Origin: a virus
DNA length: 39,430 nucleotides
IMG/VR virus record: IMGVR_UViG_3300035698_003640
Location: 1 to 39,430 of that record
Direction: 5' to 3' (one strand)
A model generated the notes under the pieces. It was not told where the DNA came from, did no database searches, and worked only from the letters and a program-made list of their open reading frames with translations. The position numbers and the translations under genes are program-made. Shown here piece by piece: positions 24,160 through 37,844 of this stretch. The stretch's first letter is position 1; each line of letters opens with the position of its first letter.

Positions 24160-24830
24160 TTATTCAGCAGTCTTAATCCATACTCCTGAAGTATCTCTGT
24201 TCTCAGCTACACCATATCGCATAAATGCGGTTGTGATATAGGCCAAGTATTGAGGTACATAGTTGGTTTGTACTTTCAAACCTGTGTTAGCGTGAACGAT
24301 AGCGTCTTTGTGAGCTAAACAGTTCGCACCTGAACCACCACTAGCTGCGTCAGTTATTCTTGAACTTACGAATACAGGGATACCGTATAGGCTTCCAATC
24401 AGTCCCTTCAATACTGGGTCTGCTCCGTTAGTGTTCTGAAGTAAAGTGAATTTGTCTAGTGCCATTACATCTGTGTAAGCAGCTCTAGGACTGAAGAAAA
24501 ATGCTCTACCATCTTCAGGTACATCTGCGTCAGCTAAGTATTTAATAGCAGCTAAGATGTTTGAATCTGCAACTCCAGCAGCTGATGTTCCAACTGTATT
24601 TGCGAAACTAATGAATAATGTAATTATTGCATCTTCATAAGCTTCTGCAACTCTGTTAGCAGCGTTCTTTGCTTGTCTATCAATATAACCGTAAGACTGT
24701 TTGATTATATCACTATCCATATCTTCGATAGCGAATGAACATTCAGTTTTAGTTGTTACAGTTAAAGTGATGTTTGTGTCTGTGTTTGCGTTACGTTTTG
24801 TTATCGAGGCTTTTTTAATTACCACATCTT
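24160..24830 (-). CDS. Major capsid protein, 3' exon
   Basis: About 221 codons beginning near VIKKASITKRNANTDTNITL and ending GVWIKTAE. The segment holds CSFAIEDMDSDI, RQAKNAANRVAEAYEDAI (spine-helix-like), DGRAFFFSPRAAYTDVM, LIGSLYGIPVFVSSRI and LAHKDAIVHA, the classic pattern of small HK97-fold capsid proteins. The 5' exon is at 25650-25886; the intron with its HNH gene lies between. Combined length is about 295-300 aa, usual for a T7-size head. The apparent GTG at 24825 is not a true start. Exact splice point lies between 24823 and 24830. Confidence 0.85.
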
Positions 24831-24971
24831 ATAGTTTCCTATAAGTCCAGACTATATCACCCCTTTCGGGTCGGGCACTCGTGGAGTTTGCATCACTGTT
24901 CTAGTGGTATAACTCTAGTCGTTGAACCTTCTACCTATCCCTAGATAGCTTGGCTGCTGATTGTCCTCGTC

Positions 24972-25601
24972 TTATTCGTTAGGAGTTTCCAGCAATTCAC
25001 CCAATTTTTTCTTTTGTCGCTTGTGTACTTCTTTATGGCATTTTTTACAAAGTGTTTTTCCATTATCAATTTGATAAAAAACATCATCGTGTACATTTAG
25101 CTTTTTAAAAGTTTCTTTATATTCCTCGACCATTAATGCTAAAGATTTTTTATGATGAACGTGTAAGTTTATAGAACCTCCACATTCTTGACATTTAAAA
25201 TTATCTCTTTCTAATACTTTTAAGCGCCATTTCTCATAATCTGATTGCATTCTTATTGGCTTTGTTATTCTCCCGGTATGTCCTTTATAGTTCCAGTGGT
25301 TTAATCCTCTATTATTTTTACCTCTATAAATTGCAGAACATTTAATTGAACAAAATTTGTTTCTATTTCTTTCTTTTTTACCTCTTTGTCCTCTTTTAAA
25401 TTTTCTCCCACAATTCTTACAAGTAAATTCCTTTATTCCTCCTATATAGTTTGGATTATTCTCACCTTTCCATCTTCTTTTCTTTTCTTCTGAATAACAA
25501 TCTTGGCTACAAAATAACTTTTTACTTCTACATTGGCTTGGCGGTCTATTTATTGTTTTACCGCATATTGAGCATTCCATATAAATCTTTTTATAAGTCA
25601 T
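24972..25601 (-). CDS. Intron-encoded HNH homing endonuclease
   Basis: 209 aa. Three Cys-pair modules, CSICGKT...FCSQDC, FTCKNCGRK...FCSIKC and FKCQECGG...LCKKC, precede or frame the HNH site LHVHHKKS...DNGKTLCKKCHKEVH. The first two look like DNA-binding zinc knuckles. It lies wholly inside the group I intron. ATG 25601 is exactly 6 nt after TATAAT with an upstream TATGC, so it has its own leaderless promoter. Stop is just before the intron core. It should cut an intron-less capsid allele to spread the intron. Confidence 0.9.
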   Translation of the reverse strand: MTYKKIYMECSICGKTINRPPSQCRSKKLFCSQDCYSEEKKRRWKGENNPNYIGGIKEFTCKNCGRKFKRGQRGKKERNRNKFCSIKCSAIYRGKNNRGLNHWNYKGHTGRITKPIRMQSDYEKWRLKVLERDNFKCQECGGSINLHVHHKKSLALMVEEYKETFKKLNVHDDVFYQIDNGKTLCKKCHKEVHKRQKKKLGELLETPNE

Positions 25602-25607
25602 ACTCTT

Positions 25608-25613
25608 ATTATA
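25608..25613 (-). promoter_or_regulatory. Intron-internal extended -10 promoter for the HNH gene
   Basis: TATGC-TATAAT then 6 nt then ATG (25601). The 11-nt extended -10 differs by one base from those at 2931-2940 and 35.29 kb (TATACT there). It lets the endonuclease be made before or apart from the late capsid transcript. Confidence 0.65.
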
Positions 25614-25649
25614 GCATACTCGCCTAGTAAAAGTTACAAAAGCCGCTAA

Positions 25650-25886
25650 TTAGCTAACGGTTACAGGACTAGCAGTTGATTTAGTGTGTGCTGTCATTGA
25701 TGTGATGTTTGGTACGTATACAATATCACCACCACCCATTATATCAGAAGATAAGTCGGTGAAAAAATTAGCTGTTACAAGGTTTGCCCTGTAATAGTCG
25801 TTCATTTTCTCTCCCCAAATTTCTGGTATAAGGTTGTCAAGGGTAGTAGTGGTCATAGTACTGGTTGGGTATGCTCCAGTAGCCAT
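25650..25886 (-). CDS. Major capsid protein, 5' exon
   Basis: Starts MATGAYPTSTMTTTTLDNLI, then PEIWGEKMNDYYRANLVTANFF and GGGDIVYVPNITSMTAHTKS, the normal N-arm and E-loop beginning of an HK97-like capsid protein. The frame runs into a stop (TAA) at the intron's first bases, after SPVTVS. Coding continues at about 24830 after splicing. The leader has no Shine-Dalgarno. Promoter activity probably comes from 26488 and from the terS promoter. Confidence 0.85.
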   Translation of the reverse strand: MATGAYPTSTMTTTTLDNLIPEIWGEKMNDYYRANLVTANFFTDLSSDIMGGGDIVYVPNITSMTAHTKSTASPVTVS

Positions 25887-31990: not shown

Positions 31991-32293
31991 TTATTGTTTC
32001 AATTTGTAACGACAAGCTTCCCATAGAGCGTCTACTAATTCTTGTTCTACTTTAGTATGTTTTCCGTCTTTGAGTCCAACTCCATAAACTATCCCTCTTT
32101 TATCTTTATTACAAACTATTTCCTCTAAATCATCCCCTAGATATTCTATCATTTGACCGATTGAAAAAGGAAATCCTTCTTTTATATAAAATGGAAACCA
32201 TTTGTCTTTTTCTAGCCCCGCTGACTTTACCAATAATATTTTTTCTTTATCACTTATCTCATCCCATTGTTCTTTTGTTATGGTTTGTTTCAT
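31991..32293 (-). CDS. Hypothetical protein between terminase and portal (100 aa)
   Basis: 100 aa: ITKEQWDEISDKEKILLVKS, a FPFYIKEGFPFSIGQMIEYLG segment, and VEQELVDALWEACRYKL. This N-terminal ITxEQWDE plus FTIGQMIEFLG pattern is common in small phage proteins of unknown function. It overlaps the terminase stop by 1 nt. Compact alpha/beta, no catalytic motif. Confidence 0.65.
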   Translation of the reverse strand: MKQTITKEQWDEISDKEKILLVKSAGLEKDKWFPFYIKEGFPFSIGQMIEYLGDDLEEIVCNKDKRGIVYGVGLKDGKHTKVEQELVDALWEACRYKLKQ

Positions 32294-33621
32294 TATTTAA
32301 AATTTAATTTATTACTATTATTAAAATTCTGATTGTATACTGGCGTTGCTATTAGGTCGAACATCATCCTTATCATCAATGTATCTAAGTAGTCTGGACT
32401 TCTTCCTATGTTCTCTTTAATCTCATCCTTTGGTATCAGCTTTAGCTTACCGTCCTTGTCAGCATCCTTCCTTTTAAGCTGTCCTAATTCTTCTTCAATA
32501 CACTCTCTCATCTCACTATCTATCTTGGCACTAATCCTCATTTTCCTTTCCTCTATAATACTGGCTAACATATATCCGCATTGATCCTTTAGTGAGGCAT
32601 AGTTCTCTCTAGGCGTGGCAAATAGTATCGTTCCATTCCTTACTATCTTAGTTTTCTTAGCATCGGGGTTCTCTAGGGCACTACTATTAGCTATAAATCC
32701 TCTAGCTCCGTGTAAGTTGTCTAACAATCCTCCACCTACTCCAACCTCATCTATTCCTACGTGGCTCATTGGTATTCTTTCTTGTCTTACCCACTCCTTA
32801 ACCTCCGTGGTAGTTACATCAATCCCTTGCTTATTCCTTTTCTCTATCCTGTAACAATCATAGCCCTTCCAAAATTTAAAGATAAGACTATCCTTTCCAA
32901 ACCTAGCTACATCTATTGTTAAGTATTTAGTGTTATTTTCCTCCAAGGTGTTAGTGAACAAATCCTGTATAGCATCGTAAGTTAGTAGAGCGTTATCGTC
33001 ATCGTCATACTCCCAGTTACCGTGCTTTAATCTCTGCTTAGTTGAATAGTCTGTTATATCAGATAAGGCTTCTTCATATTCTTTAGCTGTAAAAGGGTTA
33101 TCTTTATATAAACTCTGTATAAAGGCATATTTATCTTCTAATATACCCTTCTTCCAAGGCTTATAAAATACTCTATATAACCAGTTCTTATTAGGATTAC
33201 AGGTTAAAAGCATCTTAGGTGTTATGTTTAGCTCCTTGTTTAAGTGCCTTCCTATTCTACTCTTTAATACATCAAAGGCTTTAAACTTTACCTCAGCAAC
33301 CTCCTCTATGAATCCACCAGTATATTCTAGCGACCCAAGTCTTTCATACATTTCATCGGTAGGCTTATAAGCAAGATCAAGCAAGTCAATTCTACTACCA
33401 TTTTTAAACTCTATATAATTATATTGTCCGTTAAGTTTCCAATCCTCTTTAGGTATATCGTGGTACTTACATACTTTAGTGAAGCTTACATAAGAACTAG
33501 CCATTAACCTCTTTAACTCATTCCTACCCATAAACCATTTAGTTCCAGGGTATATATAACAATTAGTCAGTAACCATTCACAGGCTAACCAAGTCTTTCC
33601 TCCACCAGCTTTTTTTATCAC
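32293..33621 (-). CDS. terL: Terminase large subunit, main part (split at Walker A)
   Basis: 442 codons from GTG 33621. AGGGKTW is the second half of Walker A. GGFIEEVAE is Walker B plus the catalytic Glu, LLTCNPNKNW is the coupling motif, and YLTIDVARFGKDS with IGIDEVGVGGGL are the nuclease acidic residues. The first 32 residues, up to FGGGA, are encoded just upstream in another frame (33618-33716). Removing 14 nt (33610-33623) fuses them as FGGGAGGGKTW, a perfect P-loop. As it stands the protein must come from re-initiation at the GTGA overlap, recoding, or an assembly or mutational defect. Confidence 0.85.
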   Translation of the reverse strand: MIKKAGGGKTWLACEWLLTNCYIYPGTKWFMGRNELKRLMASSYVSFTKVCKYHDIPKEDWKLNGQYNYIEFKNGSRIDLLDLAYKPTDEMYERLGSLEYTGGFIEEVAEVKFKAFDVLKSRIGRHLNKELNITPKMLLTCNPNKNWLYRVFYKPWKKGILEDKYAFIQSLYKDNPFTAKEYEEALSDITDYSTKQRLKHGNWEYDDDDNALLTYDAIQDLFTNTLEENNTKYLTIDVARFGKDSLIFKFWKGYDCYRIEKRNKQGIDVTTTEVKEWVRQERIPMSHVGIDEVGVGGGLLDNLHGARGFIANSSALENPDAKKTKIVRNGTILFATPRENYASLKDQCGYMLASIIEERKMRISAKIDSEMRECIEEELGQLKRKDADKDGKLKLIPKDEIKENIGRSPDYLDTLMIRMMFDLIATPVYNQNFNNSNKLNFK

Positions 33622-33716
33622 GCACCCCCTCCGAACAGCAAATATTTTACAGTATCATCCTGTAATTTCATCCAAGCTTCTTCTTGTTTCAGAGTTGGTT
33701 TAATATTTACTTCCAT
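33618..33716 (-). CDS. terL: Terminase large subunit, N-terminal fragment (32 aa)
   Basis: ATG 33716 to TGA 33620-33618. Reads MEVNIKPTLKQEEAWMKLQD, then DTVKYLLFGGGA and stop. EAW and YLLFGGGA are what precedes the GxxxxGKT loop of many terminases, so this is the real start of terL. The stop overlaps GTG of the main part as GTGA. A 12-bp inverted repeat (33620-33631 and 33718-33729) brackets this fragment, and its 3' arm covers the break. Confidence 0.75.
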   Translation of the reverse strand: MEVNIKPTLKQEEAWMKLQDDTVKYLLFGGGA

Positions 33717-33729
33717 AGAGGGGGCGCGT
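33620..33729. repeat. 12-bp inverted repeat bracketing the terL N-terminal fragment
   Basis: ACGCACCCCCTC (33620-33631) and GAGGGGGCGCGT (33718-33729) are complementary in 11 of 12 positions, and the odd one is a G-U pair in RNA. The arms are separated by 86 nt. In the mRNA the 5' arm lies directly before ATG 33716 and the 3' arm ends exactly at the codon before the in-frame stop. Confidence 0.8.
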
Positions 33730-33764
33730 TTAAGACTTTAAAGAATCGTGTTCTTCTTTAGCCG

Positions 33765-34106
33765 TTAGTTTTTAATATCTTTTTCGTTTTTAATAAAATT
33801 AAACCCAGTTATCTTCTCATTTTCGCTTGTTATATCTAGGCTATTGCCAAATTCCTTTTTCCTTTTCTTTTCTATATACCACTTAGCTGTATTAACATCT
33901 TTTAAGTTCTCATTTATAGTATTAAAAGCCTTTAAAACAGTAGTTTCTCTTAGTTTGTTACATTTATCTTCAAAGGCAGGATTTTCTTTACACCATTGAT
34001 AATAGGTTTTTCTGCTAATATCAGCGAAAGCACAAGCCGAAGTAACATCAGCTCCAAAAGCAAATGCCTCTTTTAGTAGGGTAACATTATCTTTATCAAT
34101 CTTCAT
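33765..34106 (-). CDS. terS: Terminase small subunit
   Basis: 113 aa. NVTLLKEAFAFGADVTSACAFADISRKTYYQWCKENPAFEDKCNKLRE is a helix-turn-helix of the phBC6A51/terS type, followed by an oligomerisation helix (VLKAFNTINENLKDVNTAKWYIEKK). It is directly upstream of terL. ATG 34106 lies exactly 6 nt after TATAAT (34118-34113), so this first gene of the 29-kb late operon is probably leaderless. Confidence 0.8.
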   Translation of the reverse strand: MKIDKDNVTLLKEAFAFGADVTSACAFADISRKTYYQWCKENPAFEDKCNKLRETTVLKAFNTINENLKDVNTAKWYIEKKRKKEFGNSLDITSENEKITGFNFIKNEKDIKN

Positions 34107-35909: not shown

Positions 35910-37213
35910 ATATCTAAATTATTATAAGCGTTTATTCTAGCTTCTGCTATTTTGCAATATTCTTCTTCTCTCTCTATTCCTATAAAGTTAAAGCCTTCTA
36001 GTTTAGCACCTATTCCAGTTGAGCCACTTCCCATATAAGGGTCAAGACAAATCCCGTCTTTAGGAGTTATTAGTCTTATTAAATATCTCATCAACTTTAA
36101 TGGTTTTACTGTGCTGTGATTATTCTTATTTTCTAGTTCTTCGCAACCTTTATTCCTTTCTGCCTTTGAAGCCTTGGCTGTATAAAAAAATCTTTGTGTA
36201 TCTTCAGGAAACCCCTCTACTACTTCATCACTTCCGTCTAAAATTATATTACTAGGGAAACGACCAGTTGGTTGTTTATATTCGCCATTCCCTTGCGGAA
36301 TTGAAAAACTTGTAGCATTTCTTTTGTCTGACTTCTTAGAAAATTCACCACCATTTAGATTATCTTGTGTAGGGACACGAGATTTATCAATATTTATACC
36401 GCCCGTTCCGTGTTTTAATACATTACTAGCTATTGTCTTTTCTTCTAAAGGTTTACGACATAAAGTCCAAATTTCTGTGCTGGGTTTTAACGCTGTGCCA
36501 AAGCCTCTGTTCCTTCGTATCGTTTGTGCAAACTGTTGCTCGGAAATAACATTAGATTCTCTATCCTGTTGTCCTGTGGGTCGTGGTTGATGTGATGTAT
36601 TACCTCCACTCTCTTCAATATTCTCCCCAGATGTTGCGCCATTATCAATCTGTGTTCCATTATGTAATTGTCCTTCCTTGCCATCTCCTGATACTTCTTT
36701 GGACATCTCACATACTTTATTGATTTGTAATTTCCCTTCTTTCTCCAATAAGTTACTCCACCTTTCCACGCTGGATTCTTTTCCATCTTCATCCCCTTCG
36801 CTGGGCATTTCTTCCCCAATCCGTTTGCTGAGTATTTTATTAGATTCTTTGCTCTCTCTATCCCGTTGCACTTGTAACTGCAAAAGTTCTGCTTCATTAT
36901 CTTTATATATATCTTTCTTTTTAGAAATTTCTTCTTGCAAGTTTGACACTCCACTTCCTTCCACTTTGTTAAATCTTTTGGCATATTCTTTTTTTAATGA
37001 TTTTTCTATATTATGTGATTTTGGAAATCCTGAGCCAAAATGCCAGAATATTAAATCTCTTATTTCAAATCCAGCGTCTTCAAGGTTTACTGCCATCCTG
37101 TGTTGAGTTCTAGTTCCACAAGCTATTAGAGCGTGTCCTCCTGGCTTTAATACTCTTAAACATTCTTGCCATACTTCTATTTGAGGAACATCATAATCCC
37201 ACTTCTTACCCAT
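35906..37213 (-). CDS. DNA methyltransferase (N4/N6, beta-type), C-terminal part containing a nested HNH
   Basis: 435 codons. FMGKKWDYDVPQIEVWQECLRVLKPGG follows the DPPY motif in intact enzymes (the F precedes Met 37213). HFGSGFPKSHNIEKSLKKEY and GFGTALKPSTEIWTLCRKPL flank the nested region, and HSTVKPLKLMRYLIRL with DPYMGSGSTGIGAKLEGFNFIGIE give motifs X and I. This is the beta arrangement (IV first, I last). About residues 77-242 are filled by the alternate frame of an HNH gene (36487-36984). The N-terminal DPPY fragment is encoded upstream (37227-37331) and is separated by a stop. Modifies A (N6) or C (N4); the base is not decidable. Confidence 0.85.
   Translation of the reverse strand: MGKKWDYDVPQIEVWQECLRVLKPGGHALIACGTRTQHRMAVNLEDAGFEIRDLIFWHFGSGFPKSHNIEKSLKKEYAKRFNKVEGSGVSNLQEEISKKKDIYKDNEAELLQLQVQRDRESKESNKILSKRIGEEMPSEGDEDGKESSVERWSNLLEKEGKLQINKVCEMSKEVSGDGKEGQLHNGTQIDNGATSGENIEESGGNTSHQPRPTGQQDRESNVISEQQFAQTIRRNRGFGTALKPSTEIWTLCRKPLEEKTIASNVLKHGTGGINIDKSRVPTQDNLNGGEFSKKSDKRNATSFSIPQGNGEYKQPTGRFPSNIILDGSDEVVEGFPEDTQRFFYTAKASKAERNKGCEELENKNNHSTVKPLKLMRYLIRLITPKDGICLDPYMGSGSTGIGAKLEGFNFIGIEREEEYCKIAEARINAYNNLDI
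36487..36984 (-). CDS. HNH endonuclease nested in another frame of the methyltransferase
   Basis: 165 aa: WKEVECQTCKKKFLKRK and NFCSYKCNG (zinc knuckles), NPAWKGGVTYWRK (NUMOD-like), then HRLIMAQHL, VEVIHHINHDPQDNRIENLML and NSLHKR. The HH...N...N...H layout is an HNH_3 nuclease. It lies fully inside the methyltransferase frame, offset by +1, and the methyltransferase frame has no stop across all 166 codons. It ends exactly at the start of the conserved GFGTALKP block. Homing endonuclease without intron or intein is the likely reading. Confidence 0.9.
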   Translation of the reverse strand: MPKDLTKWKEVECQTCKKKFLKRKIYIKIMKQNFCSYKCNGIERAKNLIKYSANGLGKKCPAKGMKMEKNPAWKGGVTYWRKKGNYKSIKYVRCPKKYQEMARKDNYIMEHRLIMAQHLGRILKRVEVIHHINHDPQDNRIENLMLFPSNSLHKRYEGTEALAQR

Positions 37214-37226
37214 AAAGGATATTCCG

Positions 37227-37331
37227 CTAATATGGAGGATCGCTCACGATGGAGTCAACACTATTTGTTTCAAGTGTTCTCAATACATCGAGGCAATCCC
37301 CCAGAATGATATTATTTTGTAAATCTTCCAT
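37227..37331 (-). CDS. Methyltransferase N-terminal fragment ending at DPPY (34 aa)
   Basis: ATG 37331 to TAG 37229-37227: MEDLQNNIILGDCLDVLRTL, then ETNSVDSIVSDPPY and stop. GDCL and DPPY (motif IV, catalytic) belong to a beta-type adenine/cytosine-N4 methyltransferase. Coding resumes 1 nt later in a shifted frame (GISFMGKKW). Deleting one T (giving DPPYSGISFM) or the 4 nt TAGC (giving DPPYGISFM) repairs the gene. It overlaps the HNH gene end by 20 nt. Base composition seems higher in G+C than its surroundings, suggesting an imported segment. Confidence 0.75.
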   Translation of the reverse strand: MEDLQNNIILGDCLDVLRTLETNSVDSIVSDPPY

Positions 37332-37713
37332 TTTTATTTCTCTTTAATTTATTTATTCTATTCTTATTTTGTGGTAACAACCAACCGTGTTTAGCATTTT
37401 CTGAATTAGTAACCATTTCTAAATTTTCCAACCTATTGTCATCTTTTATTCCGTTTTTATGATTAACTTGTGGCTTATCTAAAAAATCCCTTAAAAACTT
37501 CATCGCTATTACTCTATGTAATCTATAAGGTTTTCTTCCGTCTTTATGTTTTGATATACTCGTATATAATCTAGCCTTTAAATACCCCTTATAGTCTTTT
37601 GTAAACTTAACAAACTTACCAGATATTATATTAAAAACCGTTCCGTCTTTATTTATCTTATAGCGTTCTTCTAGCTTTTTAAGTTCTATTAGGCAATCAC
37701 CGTTTATTATCAT
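37312..37713 (-). CDS. HNH endonuclease fused behind a methyltransferase start
   Basis: Start is ATG 37713 (ATGA overlap with the upstream stop), not the frame's first codon at 37752. The first 16 residues MIINGDCLIELKKLEE are the opening of a beta-type DNA methyltransferase. The reading frame then continues straight into RYKINKDGTVFNI...GYLKARLY, YRLHRVIAMKFL, VNHKNGIKDDNRLENLEMVTNSENAKHGW, a full HNH_3 endonuclease (NUMOD4-like N-part, H-N-H core). It ends at 37312 inside the start of the next fragment. It looks like an HNH gene that jumped into the methyltransferase just before its DPPY. Confidence 0.85.
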   Translation of the reverse strand: MIINGDCLIELKKLEERYKINKDGTVFNIISGKFVKFTKDYKGYLKARLYTSISKHKDGRKPYRLHRVIAMKFLRDFLDKPQVNHKNGIKDDNRLENLEMVTNSENAKHGWLLPQNKNRINKLKRNKNGRFTK

Positions 37714-37844
37714 ATTGTAATTGTTAATGTTAATGTTGCTGCCGCTATCCAATAGATCCCTCTTCTAACATCTCCACAAGAAAAGTAAACTAAGGAAGCA
37801 CATAGATCTAATACCATTAAAATTATTGGGAAAAGTTTAGTCAT
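37710..37844 (-). CDS. Two-helix membrane micro-protein (44 aa)
   Basis: ATG 37844 to TGA 37710: MTKLFPIILMVLDLCASLVY, then FSCGDVRRGIYWIAAATLTL. Two hydrophobic segments around a charged GDVRRG turn. It ends in ATGA, shared with the methyltransferase/HNH start. Translated from the promoter at 37916 behind a hairpin leader. Could be a holin-like or immunity peptide; no family. Confidence 0.6.
   Translation of the reverse strand: MTKLFPIILMVLDLCASLVYFSCGDVRRGIYWIAAATLTLTITI

Follow-up and report, generated by a model that had tools for sequence, protein, structure and literature searches.

Stop-containing inserts at the P-loop of phage terminase genes: a candidate family of ribosomal bypass sites associated with homing endonucleases

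An interrupted terL gene and its relatives

The window analysed here, that is, the whole 39,430-nucleotide (nt) stretch of IMG/VR virus record IMGVR_UViG_3300035698_003640, carries on its minus strand (32293-33716) a gene for the large subunit of a phage terminase (terL; protein TerL) laid out in two reading frames. The break falls inside the Walker A motif (P-loop), which reads FGGGA, then a stop, then GGGKTW. The first frame runs from the ATG at 33716 to TTC GGA GGG GGT GCG TGA (stop at 33620-33618) and encodes the protein MEVNIKPTLKQEEAWMKLQDDTVKYLLFGGGA. The TGA is followed by TAAAAAAA and then by GCT GGT GGA GGA AAG ACT TGG, and the second frame, which begins (V)IKKAGGGKTWLACEWLL, is open down to 32293. 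Deletion of 14 nt (33610-33623 or, equivalently, 33607-33620) fuses the two pieces into FGGGAGGGKTW, joined at two alanine (Ala) codons. The initial annotation had described TerL as split in Walker A by 14 nt that contain a stop and whose removal restores the motif, and it was right on both points. The closest intact relative (locus L002, 78% identity) reads FGGGAGGGKSW at this place without an insert. The next-nearest relative, L033 (71%), has another insert, TAGCT. The second piece is conserved between the window and L002, with a ratio of nonsynonymous to synonymous substitution rates (dN/dS) of 0.06; the ratio was computed for five pairs, in most of which synonymous sites were saturated. 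The features of the region are listed in Table 1, where take-off denotes the last codon before the stop and landing the codon at which reading would be taken up again.

Table 1. Features in and around terL of the window, with the basis of each assignment
Feature	Position	Strand	Basis
First terL piece (32 codons), last residues FGGGA, closed by TGA	33618..33716	-	sequence, open reading frame
Take-off codon GCG (Ala)	33621..33623	-	sequence; putative role
Coding gap TGATAAAAAAA, its first bases being the stop codon	33610..33620	-	sequence
Landing codon GCT (Ala), 14 nt past GCG	33607..33609	-	sequence; putative role
terL second piece, resuming at GGT (GGGKTW...) and running to its stop; Terminase_3 match	32293..33606	-	Pfam profile
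Hairpin 5′ arm, C-tract CGCGCCCCCTCT just before the terL ATG	33717..33728	-	predicted pairing
Hairpin 3′ arm, P-loop codons GGAGGGGGTGCGT, extending through the take-off codon to the first base of the stop	33620..33632	-	predicted pairing
Entire predicted hairpin around the first piece	33620..33729	-	folding z -5.5; -7.6 for a slightly different segment
Spacer between terS and terL, TAKEEHDSLKS then stop, possible C-terminal remnant of a lost HNH endonuclease	33729..33764	-	by eye; suggestive only
Probable terminase small subunit gene (terS), upstream neighbour	33765..34106	-	Sf6_terminase, E 5e-5, under the curated cut-off

IMG/VR was scanned by pattern, first requiring a stop and then allowing any insert of 1-31 nt, and a reciprocal search was run from the endonucleases described below. 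About 28 distinct phages, belonging to several TerL subfamilies, have short stop-bearing inserts at the same TerL P-loop, and in every interrupted case the stop either occupies the same place or is no more than two codons away from it. The implied hops measure 5, 6, 8, 9, 10, 14, 16 and 41 nt, which places them in all three frame relations (0, 1 and 2 mod 3). Among the TerL-like matches of the any-insert scan, stop-free inserts were all single extra codons, and in inserts of other lengths a stop followed immediately or no later than two codons on. One large set resembles the window (inserts TAGTA, TAGCT, TAGCC, TGACA, TAAGCG and TGATAAAAAAAGCT), a second is made up of proteins starting MELSIKQTT (inserts GGTTGA, GGTTGAAG and GGCTAACCAA), and loci L015, L028, L030, L035, L037, L038, L055, L070, L088 and L172 fall outside both. 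The initial annotation had proposed to look for the same 14 nt in related contigs; the exact insert with its downstream flank had no other match in IMG/VR, whereas inserts of other lengths at the same place were recurrent. The relatives include both intact and interrupted genes, which differs from the outcome that the initial annotation had named as refuting it, namely intact relatives and none carrying the insertion. Several inserts were seen again, in identical form, in independent metagenomes. Given this recurrence at a single site and these repeats, chance or assembly error is not the explanation.

A tree of 66 TerL sequences requires at least 17 changes between the intact and the interrupted state, with close sisters differing; part of these changes may be due to recombination close to where terL begins. 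In seven named phages with a similar TerL the P-loop site was intact in all cases (7/7). A scan of GTDB genomes returned mainly unrelated glycine (Gly)-rich matches, the genuine cases being a Clostridia metagenome-assembled genome (L172) and Nostoc linckia z4 (L179), and 300 genomes from the family of L172 yielded no further interrupted case. In Nostoc linckia z4 (L179/L037) the TerL P-loop insert is 21 nt long, the stop lies two codons past the last Ala, and a GIY-YIG gene is adjacent. Near position 3081 of L070 the insert TCGTA moves the stop by one codon; it is without a matched landing codon and is unexplained.

Codons, predicted hairpin and endonuclease genes at the inserts

The codon before the stop specifies Ala or Gly in 26 of the 28 interrupted genes, the exceptions being L070 and L037. 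Take-off and landing codons encode the same amino acid in 20 of the 28, six pairs are near-cognate and two are odd; by class, there are 11 Gly to Gly pairs (all GGY to GGY), 9 Ala to Ala pairs and 6 pairs leading from Ala to a near-cognate codon. After an Ala take-off the protein does not dictate the landing codon, and 9 of 15 such take-offs land on Ala (binomial p 5e-8 against 1/16).

The inserts are accompanied by a predicted RNA hairpin that has the G-rich P-loop strand as its 3′ arm and ends at the take-off codon. In the window set the 5′ arm is a C-tract, which nine loci have shortly 5′ of the terL start (CCCCC in eight, CCCC in L033), and the G-tract pairing with it ends at or beside the take-off codon; none of 41 intact members of the same family has CCCCC in the 135 nt that precede the P-loop. 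The synonymous third positions of the P-loop codons vary in a compensatory manner, GGA occurring with CCCCCTC, GGT with CCCCAC or CCCCCAC, and GGC with CCCCCGC, with L027 as an exception. Pairing between the 5′ untranslated region (UTR) and the P-loop was stronger for a locus' own partners than for swapped ones (221 vs 181 ± 9.9, p ≤ 5e-5), and the cells changed on both sides numbered 10 as compared with 3.0 after shuffling (0/500). Moreover, interrupted loci are predicted to fold more stably than intact ones (folding z, Mann-Whitney p 5e-11), and the loci newly found through their endonuclease also have hairpins, with the P-loop strand within the 3′ arm. A Shine-Dalgarno-like spacing as in prfB was considered as the main signal and rejected: GGG often, though not universally, occupies positions -9 to -7 relative to the stop.

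An open reading frame (ORF) of the HNH_3 or a related type lies directly upstream of terL in L023, L026, L027, L028, L031, L036 with its group, and L172; a GIY-YIG ORF occupies this position in L037, and broken HNH remnants are present in L022 and L025. According to the Pfam scan, 12 of 27 interrupted genes have an endonuclease or a remnant directly on their 5′ side, as against 2 of 113 intact ones (p 1.7e-8), the latter figure referring to 113 ORFs upstream of intact terL, 2 of them HNH. In the reverse search, all of the 16 closest endonuclease relatives (about 10 distinct phages, 6 of them new) adjoin a stop-interrupted terL. Among L036, L077, L082 and L095, the endonucleases share 97-99% identity and the opening codons of terL 100%, whereas terS shows 68-81% identity and terL just past the landing codon mostly 74-83%. 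This pattern is a homing footprint with its right edge at the landing codon. Transfer of the cassette as a block into different backgrounds was thus seen in this second group, not for the window. Two further observations concern the region upstream of terL: in L038 a 68-amino-acid ORF without a Pfam match directly precedes the interrupted gene, and in L042 and L053 the spacer between terS and terL contains a stretch (GGTTCAAATCCTGCCCTGACTGCA) that by eye resembles a tRNA 3′ end.

Probable ribosomal bypassing and the alternatives

We put at roughly 0.84 the probability that the window terL is read by programmed ribosomal bypassing inside a mobile homing cassette, resembling phage T4 mobA and gene 60, and that the window has kept the bypass and lost the endonuclease. 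Bypassing with matched Ala codons had been ranked first from the window sequence, and the relatives lend it support through their codons, the covariation of the hairpin and the conservation of both pieces. The hairpin, the endonuclease beside terL in relatives and the likeness to the T4 mobA/gene 60 cassette did not figure in that initial reading. The ribosome would translate as far as GCG, TGA then occupying the A site, whereupon the peptidyl-tRNA-Ala would release the mRNA. The hairpin formed by the C-tract of the 5′ UTR and the G-tract of the P-loop would re-form behind the ribosome, drawing the mRNA out in the 5′ direction, and the tRNA would re-pair at GCT 14 nt further on, so that resumption at GGT would yield an uninterrupted FGGGAGGGKTW TerL. 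The cassette would comprise an HNH or GIY-YIG gene between terS and terL, the product of which probably cuts the conserved P-loop DNA. The insert would mask the cleavage site in carriers, thereby protecting their own P-loop DNA, and bypassing would make the insert tolerable.

Short bypasses at the terminase P-loop probably also represent a widespread class of mobile elements, in which endonucleases directed at the best-conserved motif of the packaging ATPase bring along their own resistance insert, and a hairpin-driven hop over the stop, of 5 to about 40 nt and in any frame, neutralises that insert. If true, it would be the first time that a large family of natural ribosome hops is recognised in bacteria and their viruses.

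Several points weigh against the main reading. Six Ala take-offs reach only near-cognate codons (GTA, ACA, TCC), L070 and L037 fit a rule of matched hops poorly, and the matches of the Gly take-offs are in part imposed by the Gly-rich motif. The covariation test involves nine related loci, with UTR blocks that were cut by hand on the C-tract, and in the interrupted loci L030, L070, L055 and L015 no clear helix joins the upstream region to the P-loop. Some pairing of the P-loop strand is predicted for many intact controls too, the difference lying in folding strength and covariation. Finally, the window lacks an endonuclease gene, and the spacer in front of its terL, which may be the leftover of a lost endonuclease, is at most suggestive.

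The alternative that fares best, though improbable, is termination followed by re-initiation, in which the GTG overlapping the TGA (GTGA) would start a second polypeptide and TerL would consist of two chains. This GTG is in the right frame and has GGAGG 6 nt upstream; however, the P-loop itself would be cut, the matched landing codons would be left unexplained, and in 18 of the 28 interrupted genes the downstream frame has no ATG, GTG or TTG from its preceding stop up to the P-loop, which leaves this proposal of the initial annotation behind bypassing. Slightly less probable still is a slip of the ribosome into the -1 frame on the G-run (A GGG GGT) ahead of the stop, by which the P-loop would gain a few residues. 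GGG at codon 2 is common in the group of the window, and inserts of 5, 8, 14 and 41 nt all fit a -1 relation, but those of 6, 9, 10 and 16 nt require other frames; since the hop lengths fall into all three frame relations, no single frameshift accounts for the inserts. In several cases, furthermore, the downstream frame meets a stop inside the gap or at its edge, and the window product would be FGGG-CVIKK-AGGGKT, in which the P-loop spacing is broken.

Removal of the segment at the RNA level, or a degenerate intron, is very unlikely. The capsid gene of the same phage does have a group I intron, but no Rfam model scored above its gathering threshold in the terL region, in a search that also missed the capsid intron, and inserts of 5-16 nt that share no sequence are too short for known self-splicing introns; the idea of a lost-intron scar accordingly loses ground, no group I intron having been found in the terL region. 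A broken gene or a sequencing artefact, to which the absence of the exact 14 nt and flank from any other contig could point, is the least credible option, given that several relatives have identical inserts in independent metagenomes, that stop-free inserts in TerL-like matches are all single codons, and that both terL pieces are open and conserved, a constraint that does not fit the dying gene also envisaged at first.

Known systems and other homing-type genes

To our knowledge, there is one well-studied example of efficient programmed bypassing in bacteria, T4 gene 60, besides inserts in yeast mitochondria and an untested Streptomyces phage terminase. Gene 60 with mobA serves as the model system (PMC3014915, PMC5009743). 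Its 50-nt insert has been proposed to protect from homing cleavage (PMC5009743, PMC3014915), and its 5′ stem-loop to zip up behind the ribosome (PMC5009743). As in gene 60, the window has a predicted hairpin directly upstream of take-off, a stop directly after it, and matched take-off and landing codons, GCG and GCT, both Ala; a nascent-peptide signal is also among the features that define gene 60-type bypassing. Unlike gene 60, the site lies in the P-loop of terL, the gaps are far shorter, the members are many, and the 5′ arm of the hairpin may sit in the 5′ UTR, enclosing the whole first piece.

The terminase of Streptomyces phage phiHau3 is mentioned as a likely bypass in a 2016 review (PMC5009743). 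In our own reading its junction, GGC|TTACTCC|GGT, lies in the terminase P-loop and leads from Gly to Gly, but UUA takes the place of a stop in the A site, and the annotation shows no endonuclease directly upstream. The phiHau3 gene (L320, 2329-3995) has a second frame change further on, near VVLNETHHW. Hops of +5 and +6, and over a stop between matched codons, were obtained in E. coli (Weiss et al. 1987, as cited in PMC5009743); these were laboratory constructs, unlike the natural terL inserts, and up to that review no natural in-frame stop-hop was known (PMC5009743). The P-loops of mycobacteriophage TerL are intein targets, that is, sites of a homing element at a conserved motif (PMC5050341), although inteins differ from the inserts described here in that they rely on protein splicing, are long and have another insertion point. 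A search for literature since 2017 that combines translational bypassing, homing endonucleases and phages, with subscription journals mostly outside it, returned nothing, and the literature searched contained no report of a terL P-loop insert family. With about 28 natural sites, short and diverse yet built on one simple plan, the rules of hopping could be compared between sites and tested in small constructs. Such sites would also show how selfish DNA can occupy the ATP-binding site of an essential motor while its host phage survives. Gene finders are likely to call such terminases truncated or missing.

A group I intron (RF00028, 24828-25078, E 5.7e-16) interrupts the probable major capsid gene of the window (24160-25886, minus strand). 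A kinship of the terL insert with bases near the 3′ end of this intron (GTAATTAAAAAAGC) was considered and rejected, two mismatches being at chance level. An HNH-like ORF at 24972-25601 accompanies the intron, which a search of the whole window at gathering thresholds had missed. ORFs at 1258-1602, 2149-2448, 36487-36984 and 37312-37752 also appear HNH-like by eye, and the phage thus seems rich in homing-type nucleases.
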